From a virus, in the IMG/VR virus record IMGVR_UViG_3300030333_008604, positions 1 to 64,000 of that record: a DNA stretch of 64,000 nucleotides; one strand, written 5' to 3'. Positions within the stretch are counted from its first letter, which is position 1. Each line of letters opens with the position of its first letter. Positions 16,054 through 45,117 of the stretch are shown piece by piece. The position numbers were made by a program, and so were the translations under genes. The notes under the pieces are model-generated. The model saw only the letters and a program-made list of their open reading frames with translations. It was not told where the DNA came from and ran no database searches.

Positions 16054-17663
16054 AAATCAAAATACGTGAAATAAAAGATCTAGCCGAAGCGCCAAAGGAC
16101 GATATCGAAAAAGATGTCAAAGCGGCAACATATTCTGATGCAGAACTAAAAAAACAAGCAGCTGCTAAAAAACTAGCCGCTAGAAAAGCAGCCGCAGAGA
16201 AGAAGTCCATAAAAGCAAAAACAGACCTTCTAGCAAGAAATAAAGTTAAAGCTGACAGGAAAGCCGCTGCAGATACTAAAGCTGCCAGGTTGCCAGCTTT
16301 TTTTACAATCTTTGACGAGGGCAATCAATTAAATGTTGAAGTTTCAGTACTTCATCCAGTAAAATCAGTACCTGTAAAAATACCAAAACTACAACAGAAG
16401 ATTACTAAAGTAGGTGATAAAAAGTCTCTTGGCAAATCTCTTAGTGGTTCGACACTCAAAGCGTTAGCAAATGATTTACAAGCGCTCGCAAAAATTATCA
16501 ACAAACCTGGAGAAGTTTTTAAATATGCTCCATTAAAAAATGATCAACAAATAATAAAGTGGGCCGCAAAAGCCGGCCAAAAGAATGCAAAAAAAGGTCT
16601 GAAAGAAATTCTTGGCGGCGATGTTGTAGCGGATGAGAGGGCTGCAGCCGAGGCCGCGGCTACATTGCTGGCGCTGCAACAAAAGAACCGTGAGGCTGAT
16701 GATAAGCGGTTTGATGCGATGGTAAACAAAGTACGAAAACGTATTCAGAATGTTGTGCCGAAAAAAGCAAAATTAAAACCTGACTTAAAAGCGCATATGA
16801 AATCTATGCATAAAAAGCTCAAAGCTATGAGTCTGCAGCAGCTATTAAAACAGGCTGACCAGCAAGCAGCAAGGCTGGAGCGCGCTGCCGCGGCTGTTGA
16901 TAAAACAGAAGTTGGTAATCTTGTTAAAAACGCCAACGCAGATGTTATTTTTCTTCGCTACGTTAATAAAAAAATGAACGTGGATATTAGAGAACGTCTA
17001 AAAGAAAAAGGAGTAGAGGTTCAGACAATGCAACAAGCATTGATTAAGATTTCTAATAAAGCAGACAAAGAAAGCGGGGCTGGTACGGGTGCCGATGAAG
17101 CCGGCGGTTTTGCTGGAAGTTCTCCTGATAAAATAAAATCTTTACTAAGAATGCCACAAATTAATTCTGGCAAGGCTGGAAGTGGAAGGTTTAAAGATCT
17201 TGATCCTAAAGATAAAATAAGATTTTCTAAATTTCTAGACTCTGTTTTTGACCCATGTGGAGAGCCAAGAAGTTTCTTTGATAGTCTCAAAGATGGAGGT
17301 TGCAAATTTGCTCATGCTATGGCAAGAGAGCTTATCAATGATCTCGATAAAGGGATTGGGTCTGGCCCAGACGGTTCTGACGCGCTTAGTCAGCTAGAAA
17401 AATCTCATTTCGCTAGGCTTGAAAAAAATCATAAAAATTACAAAAAAGAACCCGAGACTGCTCAAGCCGGCATGGATTCTGGCATGGTGGCAGAAGTTGT
17501 GCCGTCAGCCGATAAACACAGTTCGGTTACAAGAGGAAAAGAAGGCGCTGTGCGAACGTTTGACGAGACGATGCCTGCAGATCATTGGGCGGTAAGACAA
17601 GGTATCTGCGAACCAGGTGAATCAGTTAAAAGCTGCATGGCAAAAGCAGGAAAGGGGCGTTAG
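16050..17663 (+). CDS. Lys/Ala-rich hypothetical protein with LxE leader
   Basis: 537 residues. It starts KIKIREIKDLAE, another short leader ending in LxE, followed by a strongly Ala/Lys-rich helix (residues 20-75) of coiled-coil type. A compact segment around 90-180 and a Cys-containing region (DPCGEPRSFFDSLKDGGCKF, about 400-420) follow. The end contains ICEPGESVKSCMAKAGKG. No known domain is recognised. ATGA overlap with the 1834-residue gene indicates co-translation. Confidence 0.55.
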   Translation: MKIKIREIKDLAEAPKDDIEKDVKAATYSDAELKKQAAAKKLAARKAAAEKKSIKAKTDLLARNKVKADRKAAADTKAARLPAFFTIFDEGNQLNVEVSVLHPVKSVPVKIPKLQQKITKVGDKKSLGKSLSGSTLKALANDLQALAKIINKPGEVFKYAPLKNDQQIIKWAAKAGQKNAKKGLKEILGGDVVADERAAAEAAATLLALQQKNREADDKRFDAMVNKVRKRIQNVVPKKAKLKPDLKAHMKSMHKKLKAMSLQQLLKQADQQAARLERAAAAVDKTEVGNLVKNANADVIFLRYVNKKMNVDIRERLKEKGVEVQTMQQALIKISNKADKESGAGTGADEAGGFAGSSPDKIKSLLRMPQINSGKAGSGRFKDLDPKDKIRFSKFLDSVFDPCGEPRSFFDSLKDGGCKFAHAMARELINDLDKGIGSGPDGSDALSQLEKSHFARLEKNHKNYKKEPETAQAGMDSGMVAEVVPSADKHSSVTRGKEGAVRTFDETMPADHWAVRQGICEPGESVKSCMAKAGKGR

Positions 17664-17664
17664 C

Positions 17665-18366
17665 ATGAAAGTTACCAAATCAGAACTAGAGCAAATTATT
17701 GAAGAAGAAATGAATAACGTTCTTGATGAGCGGGTTGCGACATGGCCAAGCAAGGATGCGATAGGTGATGTTGTTCAAGCTTGGAGAAATTGGTTTCAAA
17801 TGGGAAATAGTGCAATAAGTGATTTGCAAAAAGCGATTCAAAAATTACCACAGGACGTTGATGCGAAAATTAAGTGCGATGAATGTCCTTCTGGATATAA
17901 AAATTTAAGTGCTAGTGGTATGGAGAGATCGATACCTATAAGATTTAGAAGTTTAGTAGAGAGCGTTGGAAACGATTTAAATGAACTTTTTGATCTAATT
18001 GAAAAACAAAAACCGCAAAAAAAGCCAATAGACGAGGGCGAGCTAGCTGACCGTAAATGGCAGGATAACCCGGCAAATCCTGACTCACCTTACCACGAAA
18101 AGCCTATAGCTGATCCGGATTCAAATGAAGATGATGCTGCTGAGCTTCGCTCGGGACTAGACTTAACTGGCTTTGAGCTAAGAAAAGAGCGCAACGGCTT
18201 CTATATTATTGATTCAGAAAGTGGTCAAAAAGTTCTAGGACCTTTTAAGTCTGAAGGTCAGGCAGAAGAAAGAAGAAATGATCCTGCCCTTAGAGATGAT
18301 TACGAAGCTGCAAAATCGATCTTAAGTAAGAGAATGGGAGATTTTAGCAGTGAGAAAAATATTTAA
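17665..18366 (+). CDS. Tagged hypothetical protein (KVTKSELEQIIEEE leader)
   Basis: 233 residues. The leader MKVTKSELEQIIEEEMNNVLDE is almost a paralogue of those of the genes at 18499 and 18827; the rest is unrelated. The body has a CDECPSG motif and a C-terminal part (about 160-215) where GLDLTGFELRKERNGFYIID resembles a small beta-rich domain. The start is ATG 17665, directly after the upstream stop; a longer reading frame only adds non-matching residues. Function unknown. Confidence 0.65.
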   Translation: MKVTKSELEQIIEEEMNNVLDERVATWPSKDAIGDVVQAWRNWFQMGNSAISDLQKAIQKLPQDVDAKIKCDECPSGYKNLSASGMERSIPIRFRSLVESVGNDLNELFDLIEKQKPQKKPIDEGELADRKWQDNPANPDSPYHEKPIADPDSNEDDAAELRSGLDLTGFELRKERNGFYIIDSESGQKVLGPFKSEGQAEERRNDPALRDDYEAAKSILSKRMGDFSSEKNI

Positions 18367-18381
18367 CAAGGAGATAAACCA

Positions 18382-18498
18382 ATGAAACAATTACTTAATA
18401 AACTAAAAAACTTATTCAGAAAGGCATGTTGTTGTGTTGAAAACTGCTGCAAGGCTTGTTGCGCGTGCTGTAGTTGTGTGAGCTGTGAAGGCTGTTAA
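18382..18498 (+). CDS. 38-residue protein with 12 cysteines
   Basis: A basic amphipathic start (MKQLLNKLKNLFRKA) is followed by a run with Cys at nearly every second residue, in CC and CxC patterns, ending EGC. It has a strong AAGGAG site and its TAA overlaps the next ATG (TAAATG). The cysteine density suggests metal binding (metallothionein-like) or, less likely, a disulphide-rich or lipidated peptide. It is too short for family assignment, but the ribosome site and spacing make it a real gene. Confidence 0.7.
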   Translation: MKQLLNKLKNLFRKACCCVENCCKACCACCSCVSCEGC

Positions 18499-18810
18499 AT
18501 GAAAGTCACAAAACTACAATTAAGACAAATCATTAAAGAAGAGTTAAAAGGTGTATTGGATGAACAAAAAAAAATTCATCCTATGCTTATTAAATTTTTG
18601 AAAATTCAACTAAATTCACACAAGATTAAAACAAGAGATGGCTCCGAAATGACTGTCGCACAAGCTATCAAGAAAGGACAGCCGCTTGAAGATTCATTTG
18701 ACGAATTTATTGCTGCCTGGCAACAAATGTATGACAAAGCACCAAACAATAAGATGAATCTGAGATTGGCTATTTCTGGCTGGCTGAAAAAAAGCAAGGC
18801 TTATAAATAA
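18499..18810 (+). CDS. Tagged hypothetical protein (KVTKLQLRQIIKEEL leader)
   Basis: 103 residues. The leader ending GVLDE closely matches the genes on both sides. The body is a small domain with DGSEMTVAQAIKKG and a helical C-terminus, not recognised. The start overlaps the Cys-rich gene's stop, implying translational coupling. It contains no membrane or catalytic motif. Confidence 0.6.
   Translation: MKVTKLQLRQIIKEELKGVLDEQKKIHPMLIKFLKIQLNSHKIKTRDGSEMTVAQAIKKGQPLEDSFDEFIAAWQQMYDKAPNNKMNLRLAISGWLKKSKAYK
18802..18809 (+). promoter_or_regulatory. Candidate T4-like late promoter element TATAAATA
   Basis: An exact match to the T4 late promoter core sits at the very end of the preceding gene, 18 bases before the ATG of the next. 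The window encodes a gp55-like late sigma factor, which in T4 reads this element. The element also encodes the Tyr-Lys end of a gene, so chance is possible. Confidence 0.3.
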
Positions 18811-18826
18811 TTACGGAAATGAATTA

Positions 18827-19384
18827 ATGAAAATCACAAAATCACAATTAAAGCAGATTATTCAAGAAGAGTTAGCAAGTGTTTTAAACGAATCTAATTT
18901 TTTTGATAATATGAGAGCTAAGCGTAAACGAGGCGAAAAACCTGCCAAGCCTGGAGATAAAGATTATCCAAGTGAAAAAGAATGGAAAAAGATTACAGCT
19001 GAAGACCTAGATGAAGATCTAATCCAAGAATTGTTAGATGACCCACGTACAAAAGTTTCTTGTAAAGAATTTTTGCAAAGAGGGGAAATGGATGAAGCAA
19101 AAACTCCCGCATGGCAGAGAAAGGCCGGTAAAAATAAAGAAGGTGGTTTAAATGCTGCTGGTCGTAAGTCATACGAAAAAGCAAATCCTGGATCTGATTT
19201 AAAAGCTCCTGTTTCTGCTAAACAAGCTAAGAAAAGTAAAGGCGGAAAAGCGGCCGGCCGTCGTAAATCATTTTGTGCTAGGATGTGCGGGATGAAGAAG
19301 AAAAATACCGGTGCTAAGGGTAAAAGAGATCCGGATAGCAGAATTAATAAATCCTTGAGAAAATGGGATTGCAATTGTCAATAA
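18827..19384 (+). CDS. Tagged protein with conserved basic Cys-containing phage C-terminal domain
   Basis: 185 residues. The leader MKITKSQLKQIIQEELASVLNE matches the two preceding tagged genes. The C-terminal part (about 100-185: GGLNAAGRKSYEKANPGSDL, then RRKSFCARMCGMKKK, then DPDSRINKSLRKWDCNC) resembles a domain I recall from many phage proteins (DUF6321-like, by memory) whose function is unknown. It is basic with spaced cysteines, suggesting zinc or nucleic acid binding. It ends four bases before the tmRNA. Confidence 0.7.
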   Translation: MKITKSQLKQIIQEELASVLNESNFFDNMRAKRKRGEKPAKPGDKDYPSEKEWKKITAEDLDEDLIQELLDDPRTKVSCKEFLQRGEMDEAKTPAWQRKAGKNKEGGLNAAGRKSYEKANPGSDLKAPVSAKQAKKSKGGKAAGRRKSFCARMCGMKKKNTGAKGKRDPDSRINKSLRKWDCNCQ

Positions 19385-19387
19385 CAT

Positions 19388-19739
19388 GGGGGTGAACTGG
19401 TATCGACTGAGTATTGAAAATATAGCGTGCAAGGCTGTGTGAGTGTGGCACAGTAAAAACACTCAACTTTTTAAACGCCAACGATAACGTTAGCTTTGAT
19501 TACGCCCTAGCGGCTTAATCATGGGGAGTGACAACGCCTTATTAACCAAAGATAGTCCCGCCGATGGTTCCCCTCCAGGGAGAGGCGGTCAAGTGGTTTT
19601 TCCAAGTTAGGCCCATAGGACAAACTTGGTGGTGCGCTCGGTGAGAAGTTTGTCAGAGTTCGTAAACTGACTAACCTTGTGAATGAACGCTATAGTAGAA
19701 ATATTTAGGACCCGGGTTCGACTCCCGGCACCTCCACCA
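19388..19739 (+). ncRNA. ssrA: Transfer-messenger RNA (tmRNA, one-piece)
   Basis: The 5' end GGGGGTGAACTGGTATCGAC is the conserved tmRNA start. The 3' end holds a T-arm (CCGGGTTCGACTCCCGG) and encoded CCA; GGGGGTG pairs with CACCTCC. The resume codon GCC at 19477 begins a tag reading frame, ANDNVSFDYALAA, ending TAA at 19516-19518. Its YALAA end is the usual proteolysis signal. The full length of 352 nt matches one-piece tmRNAs. A phage copy could rescue ribosomes on cleaved messages or redirect tagging. Identification is firm. Confidence 0.95.
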
Positions 19740-19752
19740 ACTATTTAATAAT

Positions 19753-22077
19753 ATGCAGAAATTATTTGAAAATTGGCGAAAATACAGTTTAGACGAAAAA
19801 AAGAAGCCTAAACAATCAAAAAAACGACCAAAAAAGAAGAAATCTAGCAGAAAACCGGGCGATCCTGTAATTTTAACTGATGAGAACTTCGCTAAAGAGG
19901 TTTTAGAGTCAAAAATTCCTGTTTTGGTTGATTTTTGGGCGCCTTGGTGTGGTCCATGCCGTCGTGTGAAACCCGAAATACAAGCTTTGGCGCAAGAATA
20001 TCGTGGTGTTGTAAAATTTGGCTTCCATGATGTTGGAGAATACCATAGTTTTACTGAAACTACTGGAAAATATGAAATTATGAGCCGAGGGATCCCAACA
20101 GTCCTATTATTTAAAAACGGTCAAGTCGTAGATAGGATAATTGGTGCAAGATCTAGAGAACAATACAAGCAAGCGCTTGATTTAGTCATGGGTAGCATAT
20201 CTCTTTCTGGTGGGCCTGAGGCTGAAAAACCTAAAACTTTGGAGCCACAGCAAAAAAACAAGCCGGAAGAGCCGGTTCAATCTACCGGAATGCTGGATCC
20301 AGAGCCTCAGGCTCCTATTGAGAAGCCGGTATCAATAAGAAAAGCCAGTAAAAGTGACCCTCTCCACGCACCAGGAACAGATTTCTTAAAATGGTCTGAT
20401 TTTCCGGAAGAATTAAAAAAATTAGCAATATTGAATAGAAAAAGATTCATTAAAGCCGGCAGTGAAATACCAGAAGACCCAACTGAGGCGGAGTGGTTTA
20501 ACGACAATGTGTCTTTCTGGGCGGACCGCGCAAGATATCAGTTCGGCTTAGCACACAATCACCAGGAACATTTGACATGGGGCTCAATAAAAACACCAGA
20601 GTCATTGGGATTTCAAACCAGATGGTACTCAGCAAAGCGAATACAGCGCGGCCATACAACTGATGGCACGCCAGTAGTTTGGGGCGTTAATGTAAACTCT
20701 AGGACGCGAGATAAAGAATTTTTAAAGTGGCCTGAAATTCAAAAAATGTTTCGGGAGCGCGGCGAGCCTGAATGTTGGGAACCTGGATGTGCTTGGCCTT
20801 TTGAAGGGGAGTGGCCAGGACAGCGTCCAATAACGAAGCAAGGTAAGACCAATGAAAACAAAATGCAAGAAATATTTGAAAACTGGCGCGCCGCTCAAGG
20901 GGCGTTAGATGAACATGGGAACAAAATGTCTCTCGGAGAGCCTTATGCTTGGAAAAGCGGTTTTGCTCCGGAAAAGTCACCCTTGTATCCGCTTATTATA
21001 AGTCATATAGAAGCTATTAAAGAAAAATATTTAAAGTCTTGGGAGTCCGGTCGCCGGCGAAAGAACGCGATTAGATTTATAATACACAACACAGACGCGT
21101 CTGGACTGGGGGAAGACCCCAACGCTTCTCTTCCGGAACTAGAAAAAGAATTAAAGCGACATGCAGGGGAACAAGAAGGTGCTAAAGAATACGCAAAGAT
21201 AATAAAACATTACGAAGATTTTTACGATAAAAGGATATATCCGCAATGTAAAAGTTTTTTTGAGAGTATAAAATTTAGCGTCACCGAAAAAGGCACGGCT
21301 TACGGTTTTTGGAAGCCAAGCAACCGATCAATAACGCTTAGCGTGAGATTTGTTGATCCAAAAGAGTTTGGAACACGTGCAGACCGACTTGGAAAGCTGC
21401 AATCGACTATGATACACGAACTTACACATGCTGCTGATTGGTGGTGGGGGCAAATCGTAGGCAATATTCCGGGCATGGATCCAGCCAGAAAACAAGGGGG
21501 ATTTTCAGATATTTCAAAATATGCATTATCAGACGCACAAACGGAATTAATCAAGAATTTGTACGAGATAGTTACGTATTACAGTCCGGAAGACGTCGCG
21601 CGCGCCGAACACGATGAATATGTTCGAGGCCAAGAGAGAAAAGATAGAGTTCCATATCATCGCGATATAACTGAAGTGTATGCGAACCTACAAGCAATTT
21701 TTTCAGCCGTTGGCGACGTCACTCTTAGGGACCTGAAGCGTGTTTGTCGTTTAAACAAGAATGATGCGAAATTAAAAAAGTTGAAACAAAAAAGAGTTTC
21801 TAGGAAAAATTTGAAAGCGATGGAAAAGGTTGAAGGAGAGATAAAGTGGGCCGAAAAAGTATTGAAAAAAACCGGCTGGGGGCCAGTCATCGTTAGACAA
21901 AAAGATGGAAGAATTGCGAACATGTTTATTAGAAACTTAGAATGCCGAGAAAGTTTTTTAAATTCAAAAAATGTTGATTTGTTGAATCAAGTTGCTTCAT
22001 TAAATGACGCTGGCGTTACTTTACCCAAACACACTAAAGATCCAGTTGGCAAAACCAAGCGCGCTTTAGCGGAATAA
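19753..22077 (+). CDS. Thioredoxin domain plus HExxH metallopeptidase-like domain, two internal tags
   Basis: 774 residues. Leader: MQKLFENWRKYSLDE. Residues 35-145 are thioredoxin: VLVDFWAPWCGPC (catalytic cysteines about 66 and 69) and RGIPTVLLF with the cis-proline. An unrecognised domain follows (residues 200-360). At Met-371 a second copy of the tag appears (KMQEIFENWRAAQGALDE), preceding a module with MIHELTHAADWW (about residue 555), a zinc-peptidase motif. The thioredoxin would act on disulphides. Repetition of the tag at both modules suggests gene fusion, possibly with an internal start at 20863. Peptidase activity is inferred from the motif. Confidence 0.8.
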   Translation: MQKLFENWRKYSLDEKKKPKQSKKRPKKKKSSRKPGDPVILTDENFAKEVLESKIPVLVDFWAPWCGPCRRVKPEIQALAQEYRGVVKFGFHDVGEYHSFTETTGKYEIMSRGIPTVLLFKNGQVVDRIIGARSREQYKQALDLVMGSISLSGGPEAEKPKTLEPQQKNKPEEPVQSTGMLDPEPQAPIEKPVSIRKASKSDPLHAPGTDFLKWSDFPEELKKLAILNRKRFIKAGSEIPEDPTEAEWFNDNVSFWADRARYQFGLAHNHQEHLTWGSIKTPESLGFQTRWYSAKRIQRGHTTDGTPVVWGVNVNSRTRDKEFLKWPEIQKMFRERGEPECWEPGCAWPFEGEWPGQRPITKQGKTNENKMQEIFENWRAAQGALDEHGNKMSLGEPYAWKSGFAPEKSPLYPLIISHIEAIKEKYLKSWESGRRRKNAIRFIIHNTDASGLGEDPNASLPELEKELKRHAGEQEGAKEYAKIIKHYEDFYDKRIYPQCKSFFESIKFSVTEKGTAYGFWKPSNRSITLSVRFVDPKEFGTRADRLGKLQSTMIHELTHAADWWWGQIVGNIPGMDPARKQGGFSDISKYALSDAQTELIKNLYEIVTYYSPEDVARAEHDEYVRGQERKDRVPYHRDITEVYANLQAIFSAVGDVTLRDLKRVCRLNKNDAKLKKLKQKRVSRKNLKAMEKVEGEIKWAEKVLKKTGWGPVIVRQKDGRIANMFIRNLECRESFLNSKNVDLLNQVASLNDAGVTLPKHTKDPVGKTKRALAE

Positions 22078-22117
22078 GTTAACTGTTTATTTAGCTGTTT
22101 ATGTACTATTTATTACT

Positions 22118-24097
22118 ATGGATGAAACTAAAATGAAAGATTTGTTCGAAAACTGGGATGAGTGGCTGGCTGAGGGCACCCTTGCTTCAAGAACTATGAA
22201 AAAATTTCAAGACAGGATCGACAGGCCTTGCCGAGAAAAAGCTGGATTACAAGCAAAATGGCCAGCGGCCAGGCCTGTCTCCAATGTAAAAAAGAAATAT
22301 AAGATACAGCTTGAGAACGCTGCGCGAGCTTGGAATGTTAAATCCAACACTTTCTTGTGTGATGTTTTCGGTGTGGGTAGCCGCGGAGCAGAGCAACACG
22401 AATACAATGTATTTAAAAGCGCAGTTCAAGCAAACATTTCTCCTTTAACAGGCATTCGCAGGAGCGCTGGGAAGGCCGGCCGAACGTGGCTTCGTGCCGA
22501 AATAGCTAAAGATAATATTGGGTGGCGATTGATCTGGAACTTTTGGACTGGCGGGAAGGAGGATTATGGCTCATTGCCTGATGAAACTATCAAACAATAT
22601 GCTGACCAAGTTTTTGCTGGGAGTATGTCAATTCAAGATGTGCTCGCAGACGTAATAGTTCTGTACAAGGACAACTTAAAAACCGGAAGATATCCAGCTA
22701 AAAAAACAGTCGGTGCAGAGAGTGGTGTTACTGACGAGGCTGCCTCTGGGTTATTACAACAACTAGCTGATTGGATGCTAAGAACTAAATACGGATTAAG
22801 TCTCGCTGATAAAACCGCCCCGGGGGGGCTTGTAGATTGTCCTAGCGGAAATTGTGAAGGACAGATGGTTGTTAACGGCGACAAGCCTATGTGGAATATG
22901 CGTGATATTAACAAATTAAAGAGGTATGCTAAATACAAACATGAGCGATTACTGCCATCATGGGCTAGAGTAAAAATGTCCGGTGGGGGCATGTTTGACA
23001 TCGAAACTTTAACACCTGAGCAGATGGATTCAATAAAACGCCTTGTAAATAAGAAAGGTGGTTCTGGCATACAAAGTTATCATCAAGGATACAAATCTCG
23101 CGCCGGAAGAATGAGCACCAAAGCAAGAAAAGGTGGCGGCAATGGAGATTTTGCAATTATTCACAGTTCGACAACTTCAAGCCCATGGAAAACAGCTGAC
23201 GTGCTTGGTGCAAAAAAATTATCGACTCATTATGAAATTTCTTTTGGTGGTGTAATATACAAATATTTTGATCGCAGTGTAATGTGTAAACACACTGGCG
23301 GTACCGTTGACGGCGCCGGTTTTAACACAGCGTCGGTAGGAATCGACTTAACAGGAAAGCCGGCTACTCACACTGGCGCGCAAGCATCGGCTCTTCGAAG
23401 CTTATTGAAGAGTTTGCAGTTGGATACTAAAACGGTGGCAGATGGCGGCAAAAAGAAACGCGGCTGGCTTTCTACTGCAAAAACAGTACAGAATCAAGGT
23501 TTTACAGCCGTTGGTCACATGAACGTACAAATGAATCGTGCCGATCCTGGGACGGGGATGCTGCAAAGCCTGCCAAATAAACAAACCGTTCAAAGAAGCG
23601 GGGGTGTTGGTAAGCACTCATCTGACAGTAATCGTCTACACTGGCTTGGACAACGACGTCGACAGAGAGCGCTAGAATATTGGATAAACGTGGGAAAGCT
23701 CCCATCCGGCACTACAAGAGAAGAAGCCTTTAAAGGAAGAAAGGGAAAAAGGCTTTATGATGAATATAGAAACAAGGAAAAGCTCAGAGATCTCGTTAGA
23801 CGGCATGCCAAGAGGGCAAAAAGAGCAATATCTAAAAAACTAAGAAAAAAAGATCCTCGATATAAAGTAGGCCTGAAGTCCTTTAAAGCTGGAGATAGAA
23901 GATTTCTAAAACAGAAAGACTTGGGCGTCAGGCACTTTCGTGTTGCTATTAATACCTGGAAACAAATCGGGTCCGGATATGCCTCTAGTAGAGCCGATCA
24001 GGAATATCGGCCGGGAACTTTAGTTATAAATGAACAAATCACAAAAATAATAGAAGAAGAGATTACACGAGTATTATTGGAGAAAAACAATGAGTGA
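22118..24097 (+). CDS. Tagged N-acetylmuramoyl-L-alanine amidase, second in the genome
   Basis: 659 residues. The N-terminal tag is MKDLFENWDEWLAE; the C-terminus carries the other tag type (ITKIIEEEITRVLLE), so it has one family at each end. An amidase_2-like domain lies about residues 340-480: FAIIHSSTT (zinc His about 349), STHYEISFGGVIYKYFD, FNTASVGIDL, then VGHMNVQMNRADPG giving the second His and the Asp. The N-terminal third and the basic C-terminal third are unrecognised. If carried in the virion it could open the cell wall at infection. Domain order and both motif ends fit AmpD-like enzymes; activity is untested. Confidence 0.72.
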   Translation: MDETKMKDLFENWDEWLAEGTLASRTMKKFQDRIDRPCREKAGLQAKWPAARPVSNVKKKYKIQLENAARAWNVKSNTFLCDVFGVGSRGAEQHEYNVFKSAVQANISPLTGIRRSAGKAGRTWLRAEIAKDNIGWRLIWNFWTGGKEDYGSLPDETIKQYADQVFAGSMSIQDVLADVIVLYKDNLKTGRYPAKKTVGAESGVTDEAASGLLQQLADWMLRTKYGLSLADKTAPGGLVDCPSGNCEGQMVVNGDKPMWNMRDINKLKRYAKYKHERLLPSWARVKMSGGGMFDIETLTPEQMDSIKRLVNKKGGSGIQSYHQGYKSRAGRMSTKARKGGGNGDFAIIHSSTTSSPWKTADVLGAKKLSTHYEISFGGVIYKYFDRSVMCKHTGGTVDGAGFNTASVGIDLTGKPATHTGAQASALRSLLKSLQLDTKTVADGGKKKRGWLSTAKTVQNQGFTAVGHMNVQMNRADPGTGMLQSLPNKQTVQRSGGVGKHSSDSNRLHWLGQRRRQRALEYWINVGKLPSGTTREEAFKGRKGKRLYDEYRNKEKLRDLVRRHAKRAKRAISKKLRKKDPRYKVGLKSFKAGDRRFLKQKDLGVRHFRVAINTWKQIGSGYASSRADQEYRPGTLVINEQITKIIEEEITRVLLEKNNE

Positions 24098-25127
24098 ATT
24101 TGATTTTGTAGATCACTACGGTGACGTAGAAGAGGCTGGACCATCTAACGAACTGCCCGCCAATGAAGTTGAATGCGCGCTAAACTGTGCATTTGTAGGC
24201 GTTGGAGGTGGAGGCGGAAAACTCGCAAAAGCTTTTCTTGATCTAGGCTTTAAAAAGACGCTTCTTATTAATACCACACCAAAAGATCAGCCCGATGGCG
24301 TTGATTCTGAACACTTGGTTTTGATTCCAGATGCTGATGGCGTTGCAAAAAACGTTCAGTTTGGCAAAGACGTTTTCAACAGAAACGGATCTGTTGTCGA
24401 GGATGCTTTACGAACCAAGCTAGGTAAAGTCGATTGGCTTTTCGTTCTTGCCGGAGGCGGTGGTGGAACAGGTTCTGCATGTCATGCGCTCGACGATGTC
24501 TTTAAGCGATACCTTAATTCAGTTAACGCAGAAGGTAAGGTATTTTATATCGCAACCTGGCCGACGTCACAAGAGCTTTTGAATAATACGATAACTAAAA
24601 ATGCTTTATCTTTAGCCAACGATGTTAAAGAGTCTCCACATATTATACTAGACAATGAAAAGCAAGTCAAGTTTTTGCGTGGAAAAGTTGGAATGATGAA
24701 TTTGTTCCCGACTGCAAATACAGCTTTTGCAAAGCTCTTGACACAGACTCTTAAGCTGGCGACTGAGAAATCATCCATTCAGTCTTTTGACTCAAAAGAT
24801 CTTGAAAGATGTCTTAAGGCAGACAAGAGAATGGTTATTGGCACCACCGTCATTAAAGACCCCAATGTGTCGAATCTTGGCTCTGTTATACTGCAAAATT
24901 GCTTAAAAAGGTCCCCTTGTCCTGATGTCAGGGAGAAGTCCAAGATTGGTGCCTTGTTGTTGGTTGTGACACCAGAAATGGCAAACAATCCTGAAGTTAG
25001 CCAGCACATGGACGCTGCAATTTCTTATGTTGGCGGCCGTTCAGAGACCTTATTCTCTGGGGTCTATGTAAGGGATAATCTCCCGGGACTTATTGCAATT
25101 ACCCTAATGGGAGGATTAGAACAATGA
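24090..25127 (+). CDS. Tubulin/FtsZ-superfamily GTPase (phage tubulin-like)
   Basis: 345 residues. An acidic N-terminus precedes AFVGVGGGGGKLAKAF (residues 34-49), like FtsZ's first glycine loop, and then LFVLAGGGGGTGSA (118-130), the tubulin signature GGGTG[ST] loop. VFYIATWPTS follows, as the next strand. Around residue 232, FDSKDLERCLKAD resembles the synergy (T7) loop, keeping two acidic residues but lacking the usual Asn. The C-terminal domain ends in LIAITLMGGL as in this family. Phage tubulins such as PhuZ form filaments that position phage DNA in the cell; this could do the same, or bind the host FtsZ. It overlaps genes on both sides (8 and 4 bases), with no partner of TubR type seen. 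Confidence 0.85.
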   Translation: MSEFDFVDHYGDVEEAGPSNELPANEVECALNCAFVGVGGGGGKLAKAFLDLGFKKTLLINTTPKDQPDGVDSEHLVLIPDADGVAKNVQFGKDVFNRNGSVVEDALRTKLGKVDWLFVLAGGGGGTGSACHALDDVFKRYLNSVNAEGKVFYIATWPTSQELLNNTITKNALSLANDVKESPHIILDNEKQVKFLRGKVGMMNLFPTANTAFAKLLTQTLKLATEKSSIQSFDSKDLERCLKADKRMVIGTTVIKDPNVSNLGSVILQNCLKRSPCPDVREKSKIGALLLVVTPEMANNPEVSQHMDAAISYVGGRSETLFSGVYVRDNLPGLIAITLMGGLEQ

Positions 25128-25612
25128 AAACCAAGCTACTATTTGAGGGCTGGAGAAAGTTCGTTAATGAGGATGACGACAAGGAAGGAGATCTACCACC
25201 GCCCACCTATCAAGAATGCTTCGATGGATGCATAAACAGTGCTTTAAAGTTAGGCTTGGATCTAGATCAAGCTGAGAAAGACTGTGCGGCTGAATGTGCT
25301 GAATATAAAAAGAAAAACGTCAACGAAGCCTACGATGAAGAAGAGTATGCTACTGCTGGCGGAATGGAACAAGACATTGAGATGCGTCGCTATCGCGGCG
25401 ACTTTGAGCAAGGTGATTATGGTAACGTAGGTCCTGGAGGAGGTGAGATGGTGGACCACGGCGAATATCCCTGGATTAAAGATGCCTTAGAAGATCTTCA
25501 AGACGAAGAGTTTGATGATAAAGTTAAAGCACTAGAGGCTTTAGCAGATGAACTAGGTATTGAAATTACGACTGAGGAAGCTGAAGAGGAAGAAGATCTT
25601 AATGAGCAATGA
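25124..25612 (+). CDS. Tagged acidic protein downstream of tubulin-like gene
   Basis: 162 residues. It starts MKTKLLFEGWRKFVNE, of the FENWRKF family, then an acidic stretch with two CxxxC pairs (CFDGC, CAAEC), a Gly/Tyr-rich linker, and a strongly acidic helical end. Four-base overlap (ATGA) with the tubulin-like gene implies coupled translation and a possible functional link. No known domain. Confidence 0.65.
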   Translation: MKTKLLFEGWRKFVNEDDDKEGDLPPPTYQECFDGCINSALKLGLDLDQAEKDCAAECAEYKKKNVNEAYDEEEYATAGGMEQDIEMRRYRGDFEQGDYGNVGPGGGEMVDHGEYPWIKDALEDLQDEEFDDKVKALEALADELGIEITTEEAEEEEDLNEQ

Positions 25613-26366: not shown

Positions 26367-26484
26367 CTTTACGCACAGCGATGAGGTGCCTACCATTTAA
26401 TTATGGGATAGTATCTCCTCGTTCTTATAAAGCGTAGAAAGAGTAACTGGTTACATGTGGGTTCGAGTCCCACCTATCCCACCA
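26361..26484 (+). ncRNA. tRNA-like RNA with encoded CCA and atypical body
   Basis: The 3' end is a perfect T-arm (GTGGG-TTCGAGT-CCCAC, 26457-26473), then CTATCCC-A-CCA. Two 5' partners for the acceptor exist: GGGATAG (26405, 7 pairs) or GGATAG (26361). In the second form, GCTTTA (26366) pairs with TAAAGC (26428), GATGAGG with CCTCGTT, an inner CCAT/ATGG hairpin and a GTAA-CTGG-TTAC hairpin also form. No standard D-arm is found. If it is an 80-nt tRNA, the best anticodon loop is CTTATAA (anticodon UAU), with the D-arm missing. It may be a novel tRNA-like RNA, or a decayed tRNA. Confidence 0.6.
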
Positions 26485-32552: not shown

Positions 32553-33821
32553 ATGAGCAAAAAAATTAAGGTTTTCGCAATTGCGGACCACCCCTTTTCT
32601 CCATCTGGCGTAGGAACACAGACTCGCTACATGATTGAAAGTTTACTTTCAACTGGAGATTACACGTTCAGGTGCTTCGGCGGCGCGATAAAGCATAAAA
32701 GCTATGAGCCAGTAAGAACGAAAGAACACGGAGAAGACTTAATTGTTTATCCTGTTGATGGGTACGGAACACCTGATGCTGTTCGCTCTGTTATAAGAAC
32801 AGAACGACCGGATATTTTGTGGTTTATGACTGACCCTAGATTTTTTCCTTGGCTATGGGAAATGGAGGATGAAGTTAGATCTCTGATGCCTATGGTTTAT
32901 TATCACGTTTGGGATAATTATCCATATCCAGACTTTAATGAAAAGTGGTATTCATCTACAGATGTTGTTGGGTGTATTTCTAAAGTTACTCACGACATAG
33001 TCAAGACAGTCGCTCCAAACGTAGAGAGTTTTTATTTACCACATGCTATTGACGATAAGGTTTTTAAGCCTCTCGCCGCTGACGAGATTAAAAACTTCAA
33101 GGCTCAGGCGTTTGATGATGGAGAAAAATTTACTGTCTTTTGGAATAACCGGAACGCAAGAAGAAAGCAGCCAGGTAGTTTAATTTTTTGGTTTAAAGAA
33201 TTCTTAGATATCGTTGGTCACGACAAAGCTAGATTGTTAATGCATACAGATCCAAACGACCCTAACGGACCAAATTTAGTTTCTGTTATCGAGAATCTTG
33301 AGCTTAACGATGGCCAAGTCAAGTTTTCAACTCACAAAGTTGATTTTGAGCAAATGTCGGTATTGTATAATATATCAGACGTCACCGTAAATATTTCAGA
33401 TGCTGAAGGATTTGGTCTCTCTACGCTTGAGTCGCTGTCGTGCGGCACCCCTATCATAGTTAATATGACCGGAGGCCTCCAAGAGCAAGTTACAGATGGT
33501 GAAGATTGGTTTGGCATCGGCATTGAGCCAGCATCAAAATGTGTGATTGGCTCGCAAGACATACCCTACATTTATGAAGATAGGATCTCTGGTAAAGATT
33601 TTGTTGATGCCTTGCTTAAGATTTATAATATGTCCGCGGACGAGCGCCACGAGCTTGGTTTAAAAGGTCGCAATCATGTTGAAAAGAATTATAATTTTGG
33701 CCGTTATTGCAAAAGCTGGGATGCTATTCTTAAGGACATTAACGAAAGGCATGGCTCATGGGAAACTAGAAAAAACTATGAGACGTGGCATATTAAGGAG
33801 ATAAAAAATGAACGAGACTGA
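32553..33821 (+). CDS. GT4-type glycosyltransferase
   Basis: 422 residues with a GT-B fold: N-terminal FAIADHPFSPSGVGTQTRYM and, at about residues 280-310, DAEGFGLSTLESLSCGTPII, the E-x7-E donor-binding motif of family 4. It begins two bases after the nuclease stop and heads the glycan operon. Acceptor and sugar cannot be read. The end overlaps the next gene by 14 bases. Confidence 0.88.
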   Translation: MSKKIKVFAIADHPFSPSGVGTQTRYMIESLLSTGDYTFRCFGGAIKHKSYEPVRTKEHGEDLIVYPVDGYGTPDAVRSVIRTERPDILWFMTDPRFFPWLWEMEDEVRSLMPMVYYHVWDNYPYPDFNEKWYSSTDVVGCISKVTHDIVKTVAPNVESFYLPHAIDDKVFKPLAADEIKNFKAQAFDDGEKFTVFWNNRNARRKQPGSLIFWFKEFLDIVGHDKARLLMHTDPNDPNGPNLVSVIENLELNDGQVKFSTHKVDFEQMSVLYNISDVTVNISDAEGFGLSTLESLSCGTPIIVNMTGGLQEQVTDGEDWFGIGIEPASKCVIGSQDIPYIYEDRISGKDFVDALLKIYNMSADERHELGLKGRNHVEKNYNFGRYCKSWDAILKDINERHGSWETRKNYETWHIKEIKNERD

Positions 33822-34110
33822 TACTCCCACTGAGGGTGTAAGAACTTTTGGCCATCTTGATTTTAGCCAAGTGCGAGTACATGATGCCATTGGACAATAT
33901 TTATCTGATCAACTCCGCAGGGATGAGGAGATGCAAGGAGACCTGAAAGACGCTATCGATTCTGATGATAGGGCAGTGTTTTTCACATTTGTATGGCACC
34001 CGGGAATAGAAGACACTTTTCTAAGGGTGTTCGTGCAGGATAAGCCTCTGACAGAGAATGACATTATACTTGAGGAAGAAAATGAAGCAAAGACAGAGAG
34101 TACTGGTTAA
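33808..34110 (+). CDS. 100-residue hypothetical protein in glycan operon
   Basis: Starts with a strong AAGGAG site while overlapping the previous stop. It is acidic, with AVFFTFVWHPGIEDTFLRVF in the middle. It overlaps the following glycosyltransferase by 29 bases. No family is recognised. Confidence 0.6.
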   Translation: MNETDTPTEGVRTFGHLDFSQVRVHDAIGQYLSDQLRRDEEMQGDLKDAIDSDDRAVFFTFVWHPGIEDTFLRVFVQDKPLTENDIILEEENEAKTESTG

Positions 34111-36100
34111 GGCTCCTATATTAACTCAATCTGGCTACGGAGAACATGGTCGATTGGTTCTTCGAGCACTAAGATCACAAGAAAATATATTTGATATTTA
34201 CCTTCATGCGCTAGAGTGGGGACACACGTCCTGGCATTGGGAAGATACAGAAGAGCGAGCATGGATTGATGGTCTTTTACAAAAGACTATTCATTATCTT
34301 CACAACGGCGGTCAGTTCGACATGTCGTTGCAGGTCACCATTCCAGGAGAATGGGAGAAGATTGCACCTATTAATATAGGTGTCACTGCTGGCATTGAGA
34401 CGGATCTATGCTCAGCAGAATGGCTGTCTAAAACTGGTGTTGTGGACAAAATTATAACCATTTCTGAACATGCAAGAGATGTTTTTCTAAACTCGCTGCA
34501 TACTGTTTCCGACCCAGAAACTGGCATGCCAGTAGAACTTAAGTGTGAAGCTCCGGTTGATATTGTTCACTACCCAGTTCGACAATTTGATCCGGGAGAG
34601 ATAGACCTAAACTTAACTACTGATTTTAATTTTCTTTCTATTGTTCAGTGGGGCCCAAGAAAGAATATAGAAAATATGGTTTCTTGGTTTGTCGATGCAT
34701 TTAAAAATAGAGAAAATGTTGGTTTGATATTGAAAACCAATCTTGCTAAAAATTGTCTCTTAGATCGTCGTACTGTCACCAATAAGTTGCAAAATCTATT
34801 AAACAAGTTTCCGGATAGAAAATGTAAAGTATACTTGCTGCACGGTTATCTTAAAGATGAAGAAATGAGCGCTCTATACCAACACGACAAAGTGAAAGCC
34901 CTTATAAGCTTGACTCACGGCGAAGGTTTTGGTCTTCCAATGTTTGAGGCTGCATATTATGGACTTCCAATTGTTGCTACAGATTGGAGCGGGCAAAAGG
35001 ATTTTCTTTACATGCCCGTTGCAGATAAGAAAGGCAAGATCAAGAACAAGGCAATGTTTTCTAGGGTGGATTTTACTTTAGAAAAAGTGCAACAACACGC
35101 TGTCTGGGCTGGCGTTGTAGAAGCAGAGTCTAAGTGGGCATTCCCTAAAGAAACATCGTTTAAAAAGAATATAAAGCAAATCTGCGATGACCATGGCCGC
35201 CATGTCAAGCGCGCTAAAGATCTTCAGAAACATTTATGCGAAAACTTTTCTGAGGCGAAGCAATATAGCAAGTTTGTAAATTACGTCCTGGGTCGTCGCG
35301 ACATTGCTCCTGAGCCTGTCACTGGCATATCTTTCTGTATCTCAACGAATGGCGCCAAACTTGAGAAAACACAGCGGACTGTTAATTCAATACACAAGAC
35401 GATGAGTGCAGCAACTGTACCTTATGAGATTATAGTCGCGGGACCCGCAGACATACTCAAGAAGGATAAAAAAGTTACATATGTCGAGGCAAAACAGCAA
35501 GCTGATTCAGGTCAGCTAGCCTTGCTTCGCAACATGGCTGCGGAAAAGTCAAACAAAAAGAATAATGTTATTGTCTTTGCTGATGATGACTTAATTTTTG
35601 ATAAAAACTGGGCCCCTCGCTTGCAAGACTATTCAAAAAGCACTGGCTGGGAAGTTTTAGGAAATAGAATCTTATTACCTGACGGTGGTCGTTATTGGGA
35701 CCGTGCAACTGCAAAACCCCATGTTATGATTGGCTACGATGACTATGCCTTCCCAGGTCAAGCCCAATATCAGACCGGATGCTTCTGGATTATAAGATCT
35801 GATGTGTTCGCGAAAGAACAGTGGGATTCTAAAATTGAATTTTATGCTGAAAAGAATGGAGGCATAAACGAAGATGTAGAGTACTCTTTGCGTTTGCAAA
35901 GGCAAGGCGTGGCGTTGTCCTTTGATAAGGAAAACTTAGTCTGGCATGATGACGACTCCTATGTTGAGTGCTTTAAAGATAATCCTTTTGTACCCGGCTC
36001 AGCATGTCTTAAAAAAGATTATCTCGCTGAAGAGTATGAGCTTGAGTTTTTTCCGTCTGAATGTGCGGACTTCCTAAAGGCAAAAGAGGCTGCAAGATGA
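34082..36100 (+). CDS. Bifunctional glycosyltransferase: GT4-like plus GT2-like domain
   Basis: 672 residues. Residues 1-400 form a GT-B domain: APILTQSGYGEHGRLVL at the start and THGEGFGLPMFEAAYYGLPI (about residues 280-300) with the E-x7-E motif. Residues 415-660 look like a GT-A family 2 domain: ISFCISTNG, VIVFADDDLIFD (D-D-D for metal and sugar nucleotide), and later GGINEDVEYSLRL. The start is taken at ATG 34082 with a GAGGAAG site, not the longer frame. It may add two sugars in succession. The next gene starts inside its stop. Confidence 0.85.
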   Translation: MKQRQRVLVKAPILTQSGYGEHGRLVLRALRSQENIFDIYLHALEWGHTSWHWEDTEERAWIDGLLQKTIHYLHNGGQFDMSLQVTIPGEWEKIAPINIGVTAGIETDLCSAEWLSKTGVVDKIITISEHARDVFLNSLHTVSDPETGMPVELKCEAPVDIVHYPVRQFDPGEIDLNLTTDFNFLSIVQWGPRKNIENMVSWFVDAFKNRENVGLILKTNLAKNCLLDRRTVTNKLQNLLNKFPDRKCKVYLLHGYLKDEEMSALYQHDKVKALISLTHGEGFGLPMFEAAYYGLPIVATDWSGQKDFLYMPVADKKGKIKNKAMFSRVDFTLEKVQQHAVWAGVVEAESKWAFPKETSFKKNIKQICDDHGRHVKRAKDLQKHLCENFSEAKQYSKFVNYVLGRRDIAPEPVTGISFCISTNGAKLEKTQRTVNSIHKTMSAATVPYEIIVAGPADILKKDKKVTYVEAKQQADSGQLALLRNMAAEKSNKKNNVIVFADDDLIFDKNWAPRLQDYSKSTGWEVLGNRILLPDGGRYWDRATAKPHVMIGYDDYAFPGQAQYQTGCFWIIRSDVFAKEQWDSKIEFYAEKNGGINEDVEYSLRLQRQGVALSFDKENLVWHDDDSYVECFKDNPFVPGSACLKKDYLAEEYELEFFPSECADFLKAKEAAR

Positions 36101-36849
36101 AAAATAATCATTTTAAAATTGTTACGCCAATGTACAACGTAGAAGATTGGATTGCGCTGACTATTAAAACAGTGCTGGCGCAAGATTACACCAATTATGA
36201 ATGGATTTTGGTTGACGACATGTCTACGGACAACACTGTTGAGATAGTCGAAGAACTAACAAAGGATATTTCTAATATTCGCTTGATTGTAAACAAAGAA
36301 AAGAAGTTTGCTCTTAGAAATATTTGCGATGCTACAGCTGCTTGCAATCCAAAACCTAACGATATAATCGTAAATTTAGATGGAGATGATTGGCTTCCAA
36401 ATTCCAGGGTACTGTCTTATTTAAATGAAGTTTATCAGGATGACGATGTTTGGTTGACTTATGGTAATCACGTAAACTGGCCAGATATTGAAAATCAACC
36501 TTTTCCAATTTTTCAATATCCAGAGTATGTTGTTAAAGAAAACAGCTATAGAAATTTTAGATTTTTAGCTAGCCACATGCGCGCATACAGACATGCTTTG
36601 TGGGCTAAAGTAAAACAAGAGGATCTTCTTGGAGAAGATGGTAAGCATTGGCAGACTGCATGGGATCTTGCTTACATGATACCGATGTGCGAAATGGCTG
36701 GCCCAAAAGCAAAATTTTTAAGTAAACATCTGTATGTCTACAACAACACCAACCCTCTAAACGATTATAAGATTTATACTGAATTGCAACAGAAACAAGA
36801 GATGGAAATACGAACAGGCAAGGCTTACGAGCGCATAGAGGAACTGTAA
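36097..36849 (+). CDS. GT2 family glycosyltransferase
   Basis: 250 residues. IVTPMYNVEDWI and WILVDDMSTDNTVEIV are the classic family 2 start, and DIIVNLDGDDWLP the D-x-D-type site. Start ATG 36097 overlaps the previous stop as ATGA; a longer in-frame extension was dropped. The last base is shared with the next ATG. Likely transfers a sugar from a nucleotide donor to the growing glycan. Confidence 0.88.
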   Translation: MKNNHFKIVTPMYNVEDWIALTIKTVLAQDYTNYEWILVDDMSTDNTVEIVEELTKDISNIRLIVNKEKKFALRNICDATAACNPKPNDIIVNLDGDDWLPNSRVLSYLNEVYQDDDVWLTYGNHVNWPDIENQPFPIFQYPEYVVKENSYRNFRFLASHMRAYRHALWAKVKQEDLLGEDGKHWQTAWDLAYMIPMCEMAGPKAKFLSKHLYVYNNTNPLNDYKIYTELQQKQEMEIRTGKAYERIEEL

Positions 36850-37715
36850 TGAGATTCATAACACAATTAAACCTAGGGCAGAACGGTCGCCTAGGAAATC
36901 AAATGTTTCAATACGCAGCAATGAAATGTCTTTCACTGCATAAGACTGTTCCTGTCCTTTTGCCGGCCGGCACACATAGGCTAAGAATTTTTAGAGTAAA
37001 TACTTACAACCTGCCGCCAAATGAGATAGTCAACATCTTTAATGAAAATCGTCCAATTGTTTACAATGAGCCACATTTTCATTATGATGAAAACTTTTTT
37101 AAGATTCCGGCGCACTTGCAGAATACAAATTTAAATGGTTTCTTCCAGTCGGAGAAATATTTTAAGGATATTGAGCACATTCTCAAGCGAGAGTTTCAAT
37201 TAGTTAACCACCGTATTGTTGATTCTGTCAAAGAAACAATAAAGAACTTAAAAGCTGATCATCCTGGAAAATCCGTTGTGGCCTACCACATTCGCCGCGG
37301 CGATAATGTTCCCGCAGAAGAAAACCAGGTCGGCGACGACGGCTCACAGTGGAGAACCAACAAACAAGATTACCACCCTCTCTTGAGTCAAGAATATATT
37401 GACCATTCATTGAATGAGTTTAAAGATGAAGTTAAGCTGGTGTTTTCTGATTCGCAAAAAGATATCGAGTGGTGCAAAGAAAACATGCAGGCAGAAAATA
37501 TTTATTTTGTTGGCGGCGCCGACGATGTTTATGATTTCGAGTTTATGAAGCAATGCGACCATAATGTTATTTCAAATAGTAGCTTTTCTTGGTGGGCAGC
37601 TTGGTTAAATGAAAACAGAGATAAGAGAGTTATCGCCCCTTCAAAATGGTTTGGAAAAGTTTATAAAGATCATGATACAAAAGACCTTCTCCCGGAGGCC
37701 TGGGAGACATTTTGA
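36849..37715 (+). CDS. GT11 alpha-1,2-fucosyltransferase-like enzyme (copy 1)
   Basis: 288 residues. NLGQNGRLGNQMFQYAA at the start, FFQSEKYFKD, VAYHIRRGDNVP with the His-x-Arg-Arg-Gly-Asp site for the GDP sugar, and VISNSSFSWWAAWLN near the end are the conserved GT11 motifs. The family moves fucose from GDP-fucose; GDP-galactose is a close relative and an epimerase that could form it is encoded in the same operon. The next gene is a paralogue, and the two overlap by four bases. Confidence 0.9.
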   Translation: MRFITQLNLGQNGRLGNQMFQYAAMKCLSLHKTVPVLLPAGTHRLRIFRVNTYNLPPNEIVNIFNENRPIVYNEPHFHYDENFFKIPAHLQNTNLNGFFQSEKYFKDIEHILKREFQLVNHRIVDSVKETIKNLKADHPGKSVVAYHIRRGDNVPAEENQVGDDGSQWRTNKQDYHPLLSQEYIDHSLNEFKDEVKLVFSDSQKDIEWCKENMQAENIYFVGGADDVYDFEFMKQCDHNVISNSSFSWWAAWLNENRDKRVIAPSKWFGKVYKDHDTKDLLPEAWETF

Positions 37716-38554
37716 TAACTTACTTTAGGATTGGACAAAATGGTCGCTTGGGAAATCAGATGTTTCAATATGCCACGCTGCTGTCTGTTGCCCTAAAAAA
37801 CGATTATCAGCACGTTGTTCCAGCATCTTCTGTCGATAGAACATATTCAGCGTATTATAACGCATTAACTCAAAAAAGAGAGTTGAGCGGCTTCGAATTG
37901 TTTGATTGCTTTGAGATTGAATGTGATTTGGTTAACGATATAGAGCTAGCTCGCAATATACGTTTTTCTTATCAGGAGATTGGTAACGAGTTTTCGAATC
38001 AAGTCTTTAAAATACCTGATTTTTCTAACATAGACGGTTATTTTCAGTCAGAGAAATATTTTGCTGATCATGAGCTTGAGATAAGAAAACAGTTTGTATT
38101 TAAAGAGGAGATTCTTGATCCGGCGCGCGAGTATGTAAAGGCCTTACGAGGACAACCTTTGGTCTCTTTGCATGTGCGACGTGGTGATTATTTAGCTCTT
38201 CAGGCCGCTCATCCTCTTTGTACGATGGATTATTATCAAGCCGCTATTTCGGAAATAGAAGAAATTTTAGGTAATGTTAAAGTTTTAGTTATTTCAGATG
38301 ATATTCAGTGGTGCAAGCAAAATTTTATTGGAGAAAAGTACATTTTTTCTGAAAATTGCAACGACAAGGAAGACCTAGCAAGGATGTCCTTGTGCAACCA
38401 TAATATAATTGCAAACAGTTCTTTTAGCTGGTGGGGTGCTTGGTTAAATAATCACAAAAACAAGCTTGTGTACGCTCCTAAAAACTGGTTTGGTCCTAAA
38501 TTTGCAAATCATTCTTTAAAAGATTTATTTCCAAAAACATGGAGAGTTTTATGA
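37712..38554 (+). CDS. GT11 alpha-1,2-fucosyltransferase-like enzyme (copy 2)
   Basis: 280 residues, the same motif order as the previous gene: IGQNGRLGNQMFQYAT, YFQSEKYFAD, VSLHVRRGDYLA and IIANSSFSWWGAWLN. It has diverged from copy 1 in most other positions, so it may attach to another acceptor. The two arose by tandem duplication or by joint acquisition. Its ATG overlaps the previous stop, and its stop overlaps the dehydrogenase gene. Confidence 0.9.
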   Translation: MITYFRIGQNGRLGNQMFQYATLLSVALKNDYQHVVPASSVDRTYSAYYNALTQKRELSGFELFDCFEIECDLVNDIELARNIRFSYQEIGNEFSNQVFKIPDFSNIDGYFQSEKYFADHELEIRKQFVFKEEILDPAREYVKALRGQPLVSLHVRRGDYLALQAAHPLCTMDYYQAAISEIEEILGNVKVLVISDDIQWCKQNFIGEKYIFSENCNDKEDLARMSLCNHNIIANSSFSWWGAWLNNHKNKLVYAPKNWFGPKFANHSLKDLFPKTWRVL

Positions 38555-39651
38555 AAAATCTATCAGTTGTGGGTATCGGACGCTTGGGTTTGTGTTTCGC
38601 ACTTACTTTGGAAAAAGCTGGATTTAACGTTGTCGGTGTCGATATTGATGAGCAATATGTAAACTTGATTAACGAAAAAATGCTAACTTCGCCTGAACCG
38701 GATGTTGAAAAATTCTTAAAAGAAAGTAGCAACTTTGTCGCGACGACAAGCTTGGTCTCAGCGCTTGATCATTCCGATTTTATATATGTTGTGGTCGCGA
38801 CGCCCTCTCTGCAAGATGGACATTATGACCATTCTCAGATAGATAATTTAGTTGAAAAAATACAGGTCCTCGGCCCTAGAAAAAATACAAAAAACCTTGT
38901 TATTTGCTGTACAACGATGCCAGAATACTGTGATCAAGTTGCAGATAAGTTGAAAAATTATGACTATACTGTTAGCTACAACCCAGAGTTTATAGCTCAA
39001 GGTACAATATTGCGAGATCAAGCGTCTCCTGATATGGTTTTGATTGGTGAGGCCAACGAAGAAGTAGGAAAAGAAATCGCAAGTCATTATATTCAGATGA
39101 CCAACAACGTACCAAAAATTTGTAGAATGAGTCGCACCGAGGCTGAAATAACCAAGATATCCTTAAACTCATTTTTGACAACAAAGATCACTTTTGCGAA
39201 CATGGTGGGTGACGTAGTGAAGCGTGCAGGCTATGAGCCTGATCGTGTCTTGGCTGCAATCGGTTCAGACAGTCGAGTTGGTAATAAATATTTGCGCCAT
39301 GGCTATGGTTATGGTGGCCCATGCTTCCCACGCGACAATCGCGCTTTTTCTGCGTATGCCAAGTCGCGATATATTTTTCCTTTGCTTCCATCGGCTGTTG
39401 ACGATTACAATAGTTTGCATCTTACGTACCAAGTTGAAGATTTTGCAGAAAAAAATTCTAAAGATGAGCCGGTAGTACTAACACAACTAGCCTATAAGCC
39501 TGGCACTACAATTCTTGAAGAGTCTCAACAATTAAGATTTGCTGTCCATTTGGCGCGCCGTGGCTATAATGTTATTATTAGAGAAGATCCGCGAGTAATA
39601 GAAAAGATCAAGAATGTGCACGGGATGCTTTTTGAATACGAGGAACGATAA
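38551..39651 (+). CDS. UDP-glucose/GDP-mannose 6-dehydrogenase family
   Basis: 366 residues. SVVGIGRLGLCFALTLE is the NAD-binding GxGxxG, GVDIDEQYV the next motif, YNPEFIAQGT follows, and GYGGPCFPRD (about residues 252-261) contains the catalytic cysteine. The family oxidises C6 of a nucleotide sugar to the acid with two NAD. The substrate (UDP-glucose or related) is not decided. Start chosen at ATG 38551, overlapping the previous stop. Confidence 0.85.
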   Translation: MKNLSVVGIGRLGLCFALTLEKAGFNVVGVDIDEQYVNLINEKMLTSPEPDVEKFLKESSNFVATTSLVSALDHSDFIYVVVATPSLQDGHYDHSQIDNLVEKIQVLGPRKNTKNLVICCTTMPEYCDQVADKLKNYDYTVSYNPEFIAQGTILRDQASPDMVLIGEANEEVGKEIASHYIQMTNNVPKICRMSRTEAEITKISLNSFLTTKITFANMVGDVVKRAGYEPDRVLAAIGSDSRVGNKYLRHGYGYGGPCFPRDNRAFSAYAKSRYIFPLLPSAVDDYNSLHLTYQVEDFAEKNSKDEPVVLTQLAYKPGTTILEESQQLRFAVHLARRGYNVIIREDPRVIEKIKNVHGMLFEYEER

Positions 39652-42572: not shown

Positions 42573-42573
42573 A

Positions 42574-45113: not shown

Positions 45114-45117
45114 AAGG

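Follow-up and report, generated by a model that had tools for sequence, protein, structure and literature searches.

A gene of the tubulin/FtsZ superfamily was identified in the window (the whole 64,000-nucleotide stretch of viral DNA analysed here), and its product represents a protein family that is previously undescribed but widespread in T4-like phages. FtsZ is the filament-forming protein used by bacteria to divide, and we are fairly confident that the phage protein is an FtsZ-type GTPase built to polymerise. The gene, its motifs and its neighbours are collected in Table 1.

Table 1. The FtsZ-like gene, its motifs and the neighbouring genes (window positions).
Feature	Position	Strand	Details
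Type-A tagged protein	17617..18366	+	MKVTKSELEQIIEEEM...VLDE
Type-A tagged protein	18499..18810	+	
Type-A tagged protein	18827..19384	+	
tmRNA	19388..19739	+	Rfam E 5.5e-48; tag ANDNVSFDYALAA
Type-B tagged protein with thioredoxin domain	19753..22077	+	Pfam 3e-24
Tagged protein with weak Amidase_2 domain (upstream overlapping gene)	22118..24097	+	Amidase_2 E=6.6e-5, under cut-off; tag-like N- and C-termini
FtsZ/tubulin-superfamily GTPase	24090..25127	+	345 aa, ATG start
Docking-like motif E-F-D-F-V-D-H-Y	24096..24119	+	Residues 3-10, disordered acidic N-terminal tail
T1 glycine loop GVGGGGGK	24198..24221	+	Residues 37-44; G37, G39, G40, G42 and K44 invariant
T4 phosphate loop GGGGGTGS	24453..24476	+	Residues 122-129; 8/9 positions of 121-129 invariant
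T7 synergy loop QSFDSKDL	24780..24803	+	Residues 231-238; Ser for FtsZ Asn, both Asp retained
H10-S9 loop YVGGRSETLF	25026..25055	+	Residues 313-322; 8/10 positions invariant; bottom-face protofilament contact in FtsZ/TubZ
Tagged acidic protein (downstream overlapping gene)	25124..25612	+	Start MKTKLLFEGWRKFVNE

The open reading frame encodes a real and strongly conserved GTPase of the tubulin/FtsZ superfamily. Membership had been proposed in the sequence-only reading from the glycine loops, and it was confirmed by Pfam matches in all aligned relatives, by the invariance or near-invariance of these loops and by the predicted fold. Relatives were collected by scanning IMG/VR with the window protein (10 contigs) and then with the alignment of these contigs, which gave 225 related stretches, the 80 best being retained; groups at 90% identity were treated as lineages (n=35). 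The Pfam Tubulin family PF00091 matched residues 34-190 of the window protein with E=2e-4, under the curated cut-off, and it was matched by 50 of 50 aligned relatives (best 3e-9). Judging from the sequences, these matches and the profile matches given below are not due to chance. Among 73 distinct sequences the T1, T2 (NTxxKD, residues 61-66), T4 and T7 motifs were invariant or almost so. The T7 consensus was QxFDSKDL, with D234 and D237 invariant and with Ser (51%), Thr (42%) or Ala (7%) at the position of the FtsZ Asn. The earlier description of a partly kept synergy loop was correct regarding the missing Asn, but it understated the conservation, since both acidic residues are invariant family-wide. 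The variant loop may change GTP hydrolysis, as first suggested. Of the defining features of the superfamily, a tubulin fold with GTPase domain, long H7 and activation domain, the T4 signature GGGTGS/T and the acidic T7 residues were observed, and GTP-dependent polymerisation would be expected from the conservation. Purifying selection acts on the gene (dN/dS 0.02-0.14 in pairs with measurable dS), and purine-rich sequences resembling ribosome-binding sites precede its start and those of the overlapping neighbours. One FtsZ-like copy (L432, G038:226860-227894) contains one internal TAA and may be decayed, recoded or affected by a sequencing error.

The window comes from a 122,942-base linear IMG/VR record encoding a capsid protein of gp23 type along with an S77 prohead protease, and on its gene content the carrier, a large marine virus of bacteria, is a T4-type myovirus. 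The gp23-type protein was found in 11 of 15 records and the protease in 13 of 15, record G000 having both; gp46/47, primase, terminase, portal and tail sheath genes were also present among carriers of the family, and genes for PhoH and for a gp55-like sigma factor lie in the window itself. Among named cultured phages, Flavobacterium phage immuto has the closest capsid protein (~45% over the part that aligned). No credible match to the family was obtained in cultured phages (phage G at E 0.2 only), and literature searches returned no description of it. In cellular genomes four family matches only were found, all in contigs binned into MAGs that are probably phage, and a plasmid search with one divergent relative gave no match; a cellular or plasmid origin was rejected on these grounds. 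A tie to very large genomes was rejected too, because records of 257 and 273 kb were devoid of the gene. Only 5 of 44 records chosen by capsid protein alone (some of which may be fragments) carried the FtsZ-like gene, indicating that it is accessory. FtsZ-like and major capsid protein (MCP) identities were correlated (rho 0.68, 66 non-independent pairs), with a few pairs in which the FtsZ-like proteins were much more alike; this suggests an old residence of the gene, with some exchange.

Structure prediction against FtsZ, TubZ and PhuZ had been named beforehand as the test able to refute the assignment, and the fold remained of the tubulin type. The AlphaFold model of the window protein, obtained with a 50-sequence alignment, was confident (pLDDT 92, pTM 0.89) except for the first ~20 residues (pLDDT about 50), and its chain stops at the last strand. 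Foldseek searches of the PDB retrieved CetZ (E 4e-20), FtsZ and TubZ with TMq values of 0.68-0.77. Among viral models the best match was A0A6J5RW92 (TMq 0.79), and PhuZ of phage Noxifer reached 0.53. The family profile matched CetZ and FtsZ among PDB sequences with E values down to 1.5e-9, and hhalign aligned it with E. coli FtsZ (probability 95.9%, E 5.7e-9) but not with phiKZ PhuZ (probability 0.2%).

Compared with bacterial FtsZ, the family has a similar fold (TM 0.68-0.70), the GTP loops and the two T7 aspartates, but it lacks the T7 Asn (Ser, Thr or Ala instead) and the C-terminal linker with the FtsA/ZipA peptide. In 34 of 35 lineages the protein ends at most 12-17 residues past the start of the last PGL motif, with neither a linker nor a conserved FtsZ-type peptide. 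Conversely, the acidic N-terminal motif and the location on phages are features of the family and not of FtsZ. Archaeal CetZ was the top PDB match by sequence and fold (3zid; TM 0.73 for CetZ2, 4b45), although identity was only ~18-20% and the family is carried by a T4-type virus rather than an archaeon. The TubZ of Bacillus plasmids is similar in fold (TM 0.75-0.77) and the T2 loop N-T-x-x-K-D is as in a TubZ, whereas the family has no C-terminal extension and no TubR-like partner gene was seen. A0A6J5RW92, annotated as 'FtsZ Cell division GTPase' of an uncultured Caudovirales phage, has the closest viral fold, but with 17% identity and 452 aa it belongs to a different family.

The PhuZ of Chimalliviridae is also a phage-borne, accessory member of the tubulin superfamily, missing from a third of Chimalliviridae (PMC10299810). 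However, the TM values are far better to CetZ, FtsZ and TubZ than to PhuZ, and the profile matches FtsZ and not PhuZ; therefore, the protein is not PhuZ. The rejection of this identity also took into account the C-terminus and the carriers. A C-terminal H11 and an acidic-knuckle tail are features of PhuZ, and polymerisation of PhuZ and of phiKZ TubZ is aided by a C-terminal tail (PMC3678025); neither H11 nor the tail is present in the model. The carriers are T4-type phages, and a phiKZ chimallin query that matched phiKZ itself found nothing in the nine records with the FtsZ-like gene, in a single-sequence search that distant homologues could escape. The same evidence bears on a segregation or centring motor of the TubZ or PhuZ type, moving phage DNA through an adaptor. 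Such a motor would agree with the TubZ fold matches and with the accessory nature of PhuZ, but it is improbable given the missing C-terminal helix and tail, the lack of a PhuZ match or of a detected chimallin, and the absence, among the loci and records compared, of a conserved neighbour or co-occurring family fit to act as a TubR-like adaptor.

One important question is whether the conservation is that expected of a polymer. Invariant sites made up 45 of 77 positions in T1-T7 plus the H10-S9 loop versus 49 of 245 elsewhere (odds ratio 5.6, p=5e-10). A role of the H10-S9 loop has been described in phiKZ TubZ (PMC3678025). These interface regions were picked from knowledge of FtsZ, and conservation of the GTP site alone would give part of the signal; therefore, the enrichment supports polymerisation without proving it. 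The invariant residues are concentrated on both faces of a canonical protofilament. GTP would be held on the T1-T6 face of one subunit and the active site, and with it hydrolysis, would be completed by Asp234 and Asp237 in the T7 loop of the next one.

This pattern also weighs on the idea that the protein serves in host takeover. As a mimic of FtsZ, it would cap or titrate the host protein or co-polymerise with it, so that division stops and the infected cell enlarges. Both halves of the active site are conserved, whereas a capper or poison needs one, identity to E. coli FtsZ is only ~22% across the aligned core, and the gene lies mostly among presumed late genes. Phage takeover genes are usually early. 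The family sequence is nearer to FtsZ than to PhuZ, and its accessory, patchy spread suits a host-interaction gene; a phage protein, T7 Gp0.4, is also reported to form a complex with host FtsZ (PMC13423816). On balance, we consider mimicry unlikely.

The N-terminal tail carries an acidic F-x-F-x3-Y motif, with F4, F6 and Y10 each at least 90% conserved. Of 87 relatives 80 have the motif, whereas the 1885 other proteins encoded at these loci all lack it. It looks like a docking peptide replacing the C-terminal peptide of FtsZ.

Across the 35 lineages the FtsZ-like gene was found in genomic locations of at least five kinds: the gap between MCP and neck genes (9 lineages), the gap between portal and prohead protease, a tmRNA/PhoH island, beside gp46/47 and after gp55. 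In 16 of 35 lineages there is a head or neck gene no more than 6 kb away, in orders that include MCP-[Z]-neck and portal-...-[Z]-prohead protease. When G000 and G018, which carry the gene, were compared with G017, which does not, it was located in two different variable islands and was the sole gene common to G000 and G018 in them. Since the gene is found at several sites, its neighbourhood is weak evidence on function. No constant operon partner was detected among 87 loci. In a comparison of 8 nearly complete records with the gene and 7 without it, the FtsZ-like family alone was present in 8/8 and absent in 7/7, and no other co-occurring family was found, although genes cut at piece ends could escape. 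As no other family follows the gene, its partner is likely either a host protein or one of the core proteins of the phage. Related genes for predicted secreted proteins or lipoproteins, one with CDGxDNDCNG motifs, were observed in G001, G004, G005 and G006 (e.g. L454:3552-4958), that is, in 4/8 records with the FtsZ-like gene and 0/7 without it.

The FtsZ-like gene is coupled by overlaps on both sides, as initially noted, by 8 nt with the upstream gene and by a 4-nt ATGA with the downstream one. The tagged neighbours reported at the same time are real in the window, but this context is only partly general across lineages. A tagged gene lies within 3 kb in 15 of 35 lineages and within 6 kb in 17 of 35, and the excess of tags over random positions was modest by permutation (p=0.017 for tag counts, 0.27 for presence), which weakens the tagged context as a general rule. 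In the region 17617-25612 terminal tags are found on otherwise unrelated proteins, some of them tagged at both ends. The tags are of two types, K-[IV]-T-K-x-x-L-x-x-I-I-x-E-E-L and M-K-x-L-[FM]-E-N-W-R-K-[YF]-[LIV]-x-E, and 26 of the 31 distinct type-B tags have the final E, with variable sequence immediately beyond. The second type ends in [LIV]-x-E, as T4 capsid-targeting sequences do, and the T4 prohead protease cleaves after (L/I)-x-E. Internal proteins of T4 enter the head core by means of a capsid-targeting sequence that is removed by the protease (PMC3012670, PMC5694885, PMC9958956). By analogy with these parallels, the tags of the neighbours are probably capsid-targeting sequences. That the FtsZ-like protein itself is cargo, carried inside the head and injected along with the tagged proteins, is very unlikely, because despite the overlapping tagged genes in the window and those nearby in 17/35 lineages, no tag was found on it in 87 relatives and its conserved N-terminus is a different motif.

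Other observations were made in this context. The protein with the thioredoxin domain also has a HELTH region with a weak metallopeptidase match. A tmRNA was found as well in relatives L002, L027, L047, L063, L072 and L083, all with the FtsZ-like gene, and in G017, without it; in four lineages, L002 (with a tRNA-Ala in between), L063, L072 and L083, it lies ~300 nt or less upstream of the FtsZ-like gene. Positions 26405-26481 of the window contain a tRNA-like sequence that was barely over the Rfam threshold and absent from the ARAGORN results, and positions 32553-46961 hold a run of glycosyltransferase-, sugar-nucleotide- and epimerase-like genes, recognised by eye from the translations.

We propose that the FtsZ-type GTPase may polymerise in the infected cell into canonical protofilaments which, lacking a C-terminal tail, would be tethered through the acidic N-terminal peptide, probably to a host protein or to a core protein of the phage. 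The filaments would most likely organise or position phage genomes, proheads or their cargo late in infection, a role suggested by where the gene is mostly found, amid genes for head assembly, for capsid cargo and for other functions presumed to be late. Such a task would resemble that of PhuZ, but it would be carried out in a phage that forms no nucleus. The patchy presence of the gene argues against an essential role in head assembly. Taken as a whole, the proposal of an accessory, N-terminally tethered protofilament with this organising role is tentative, with a chance that we place somewhat short of even; it is the leading reading, and interference with host division and the centring of DNA are serious rivals. 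A specific role of the tethered filament as a phage cytoskeleton that organises how heads are assembled or cargo is loaded in T4-type phages, with no nucleus and independently of the PhuZ lineage, is conceivable but doubtful.

Nearly all discussion of phage tubulins has concerned jumbo phages that form a nucleus, apart from a few TubZ elements, and few assembly pathways are understood as well as that of T4-type phages. With a separate and widespread family of FtsZ type in marine T4-type phages one could ask if phages without a nucleus build a cytoskeleton and what for, and the patchy distribution of the family, its several genomic sites and its single N-terminal motif provide concrete handles toward the partner.
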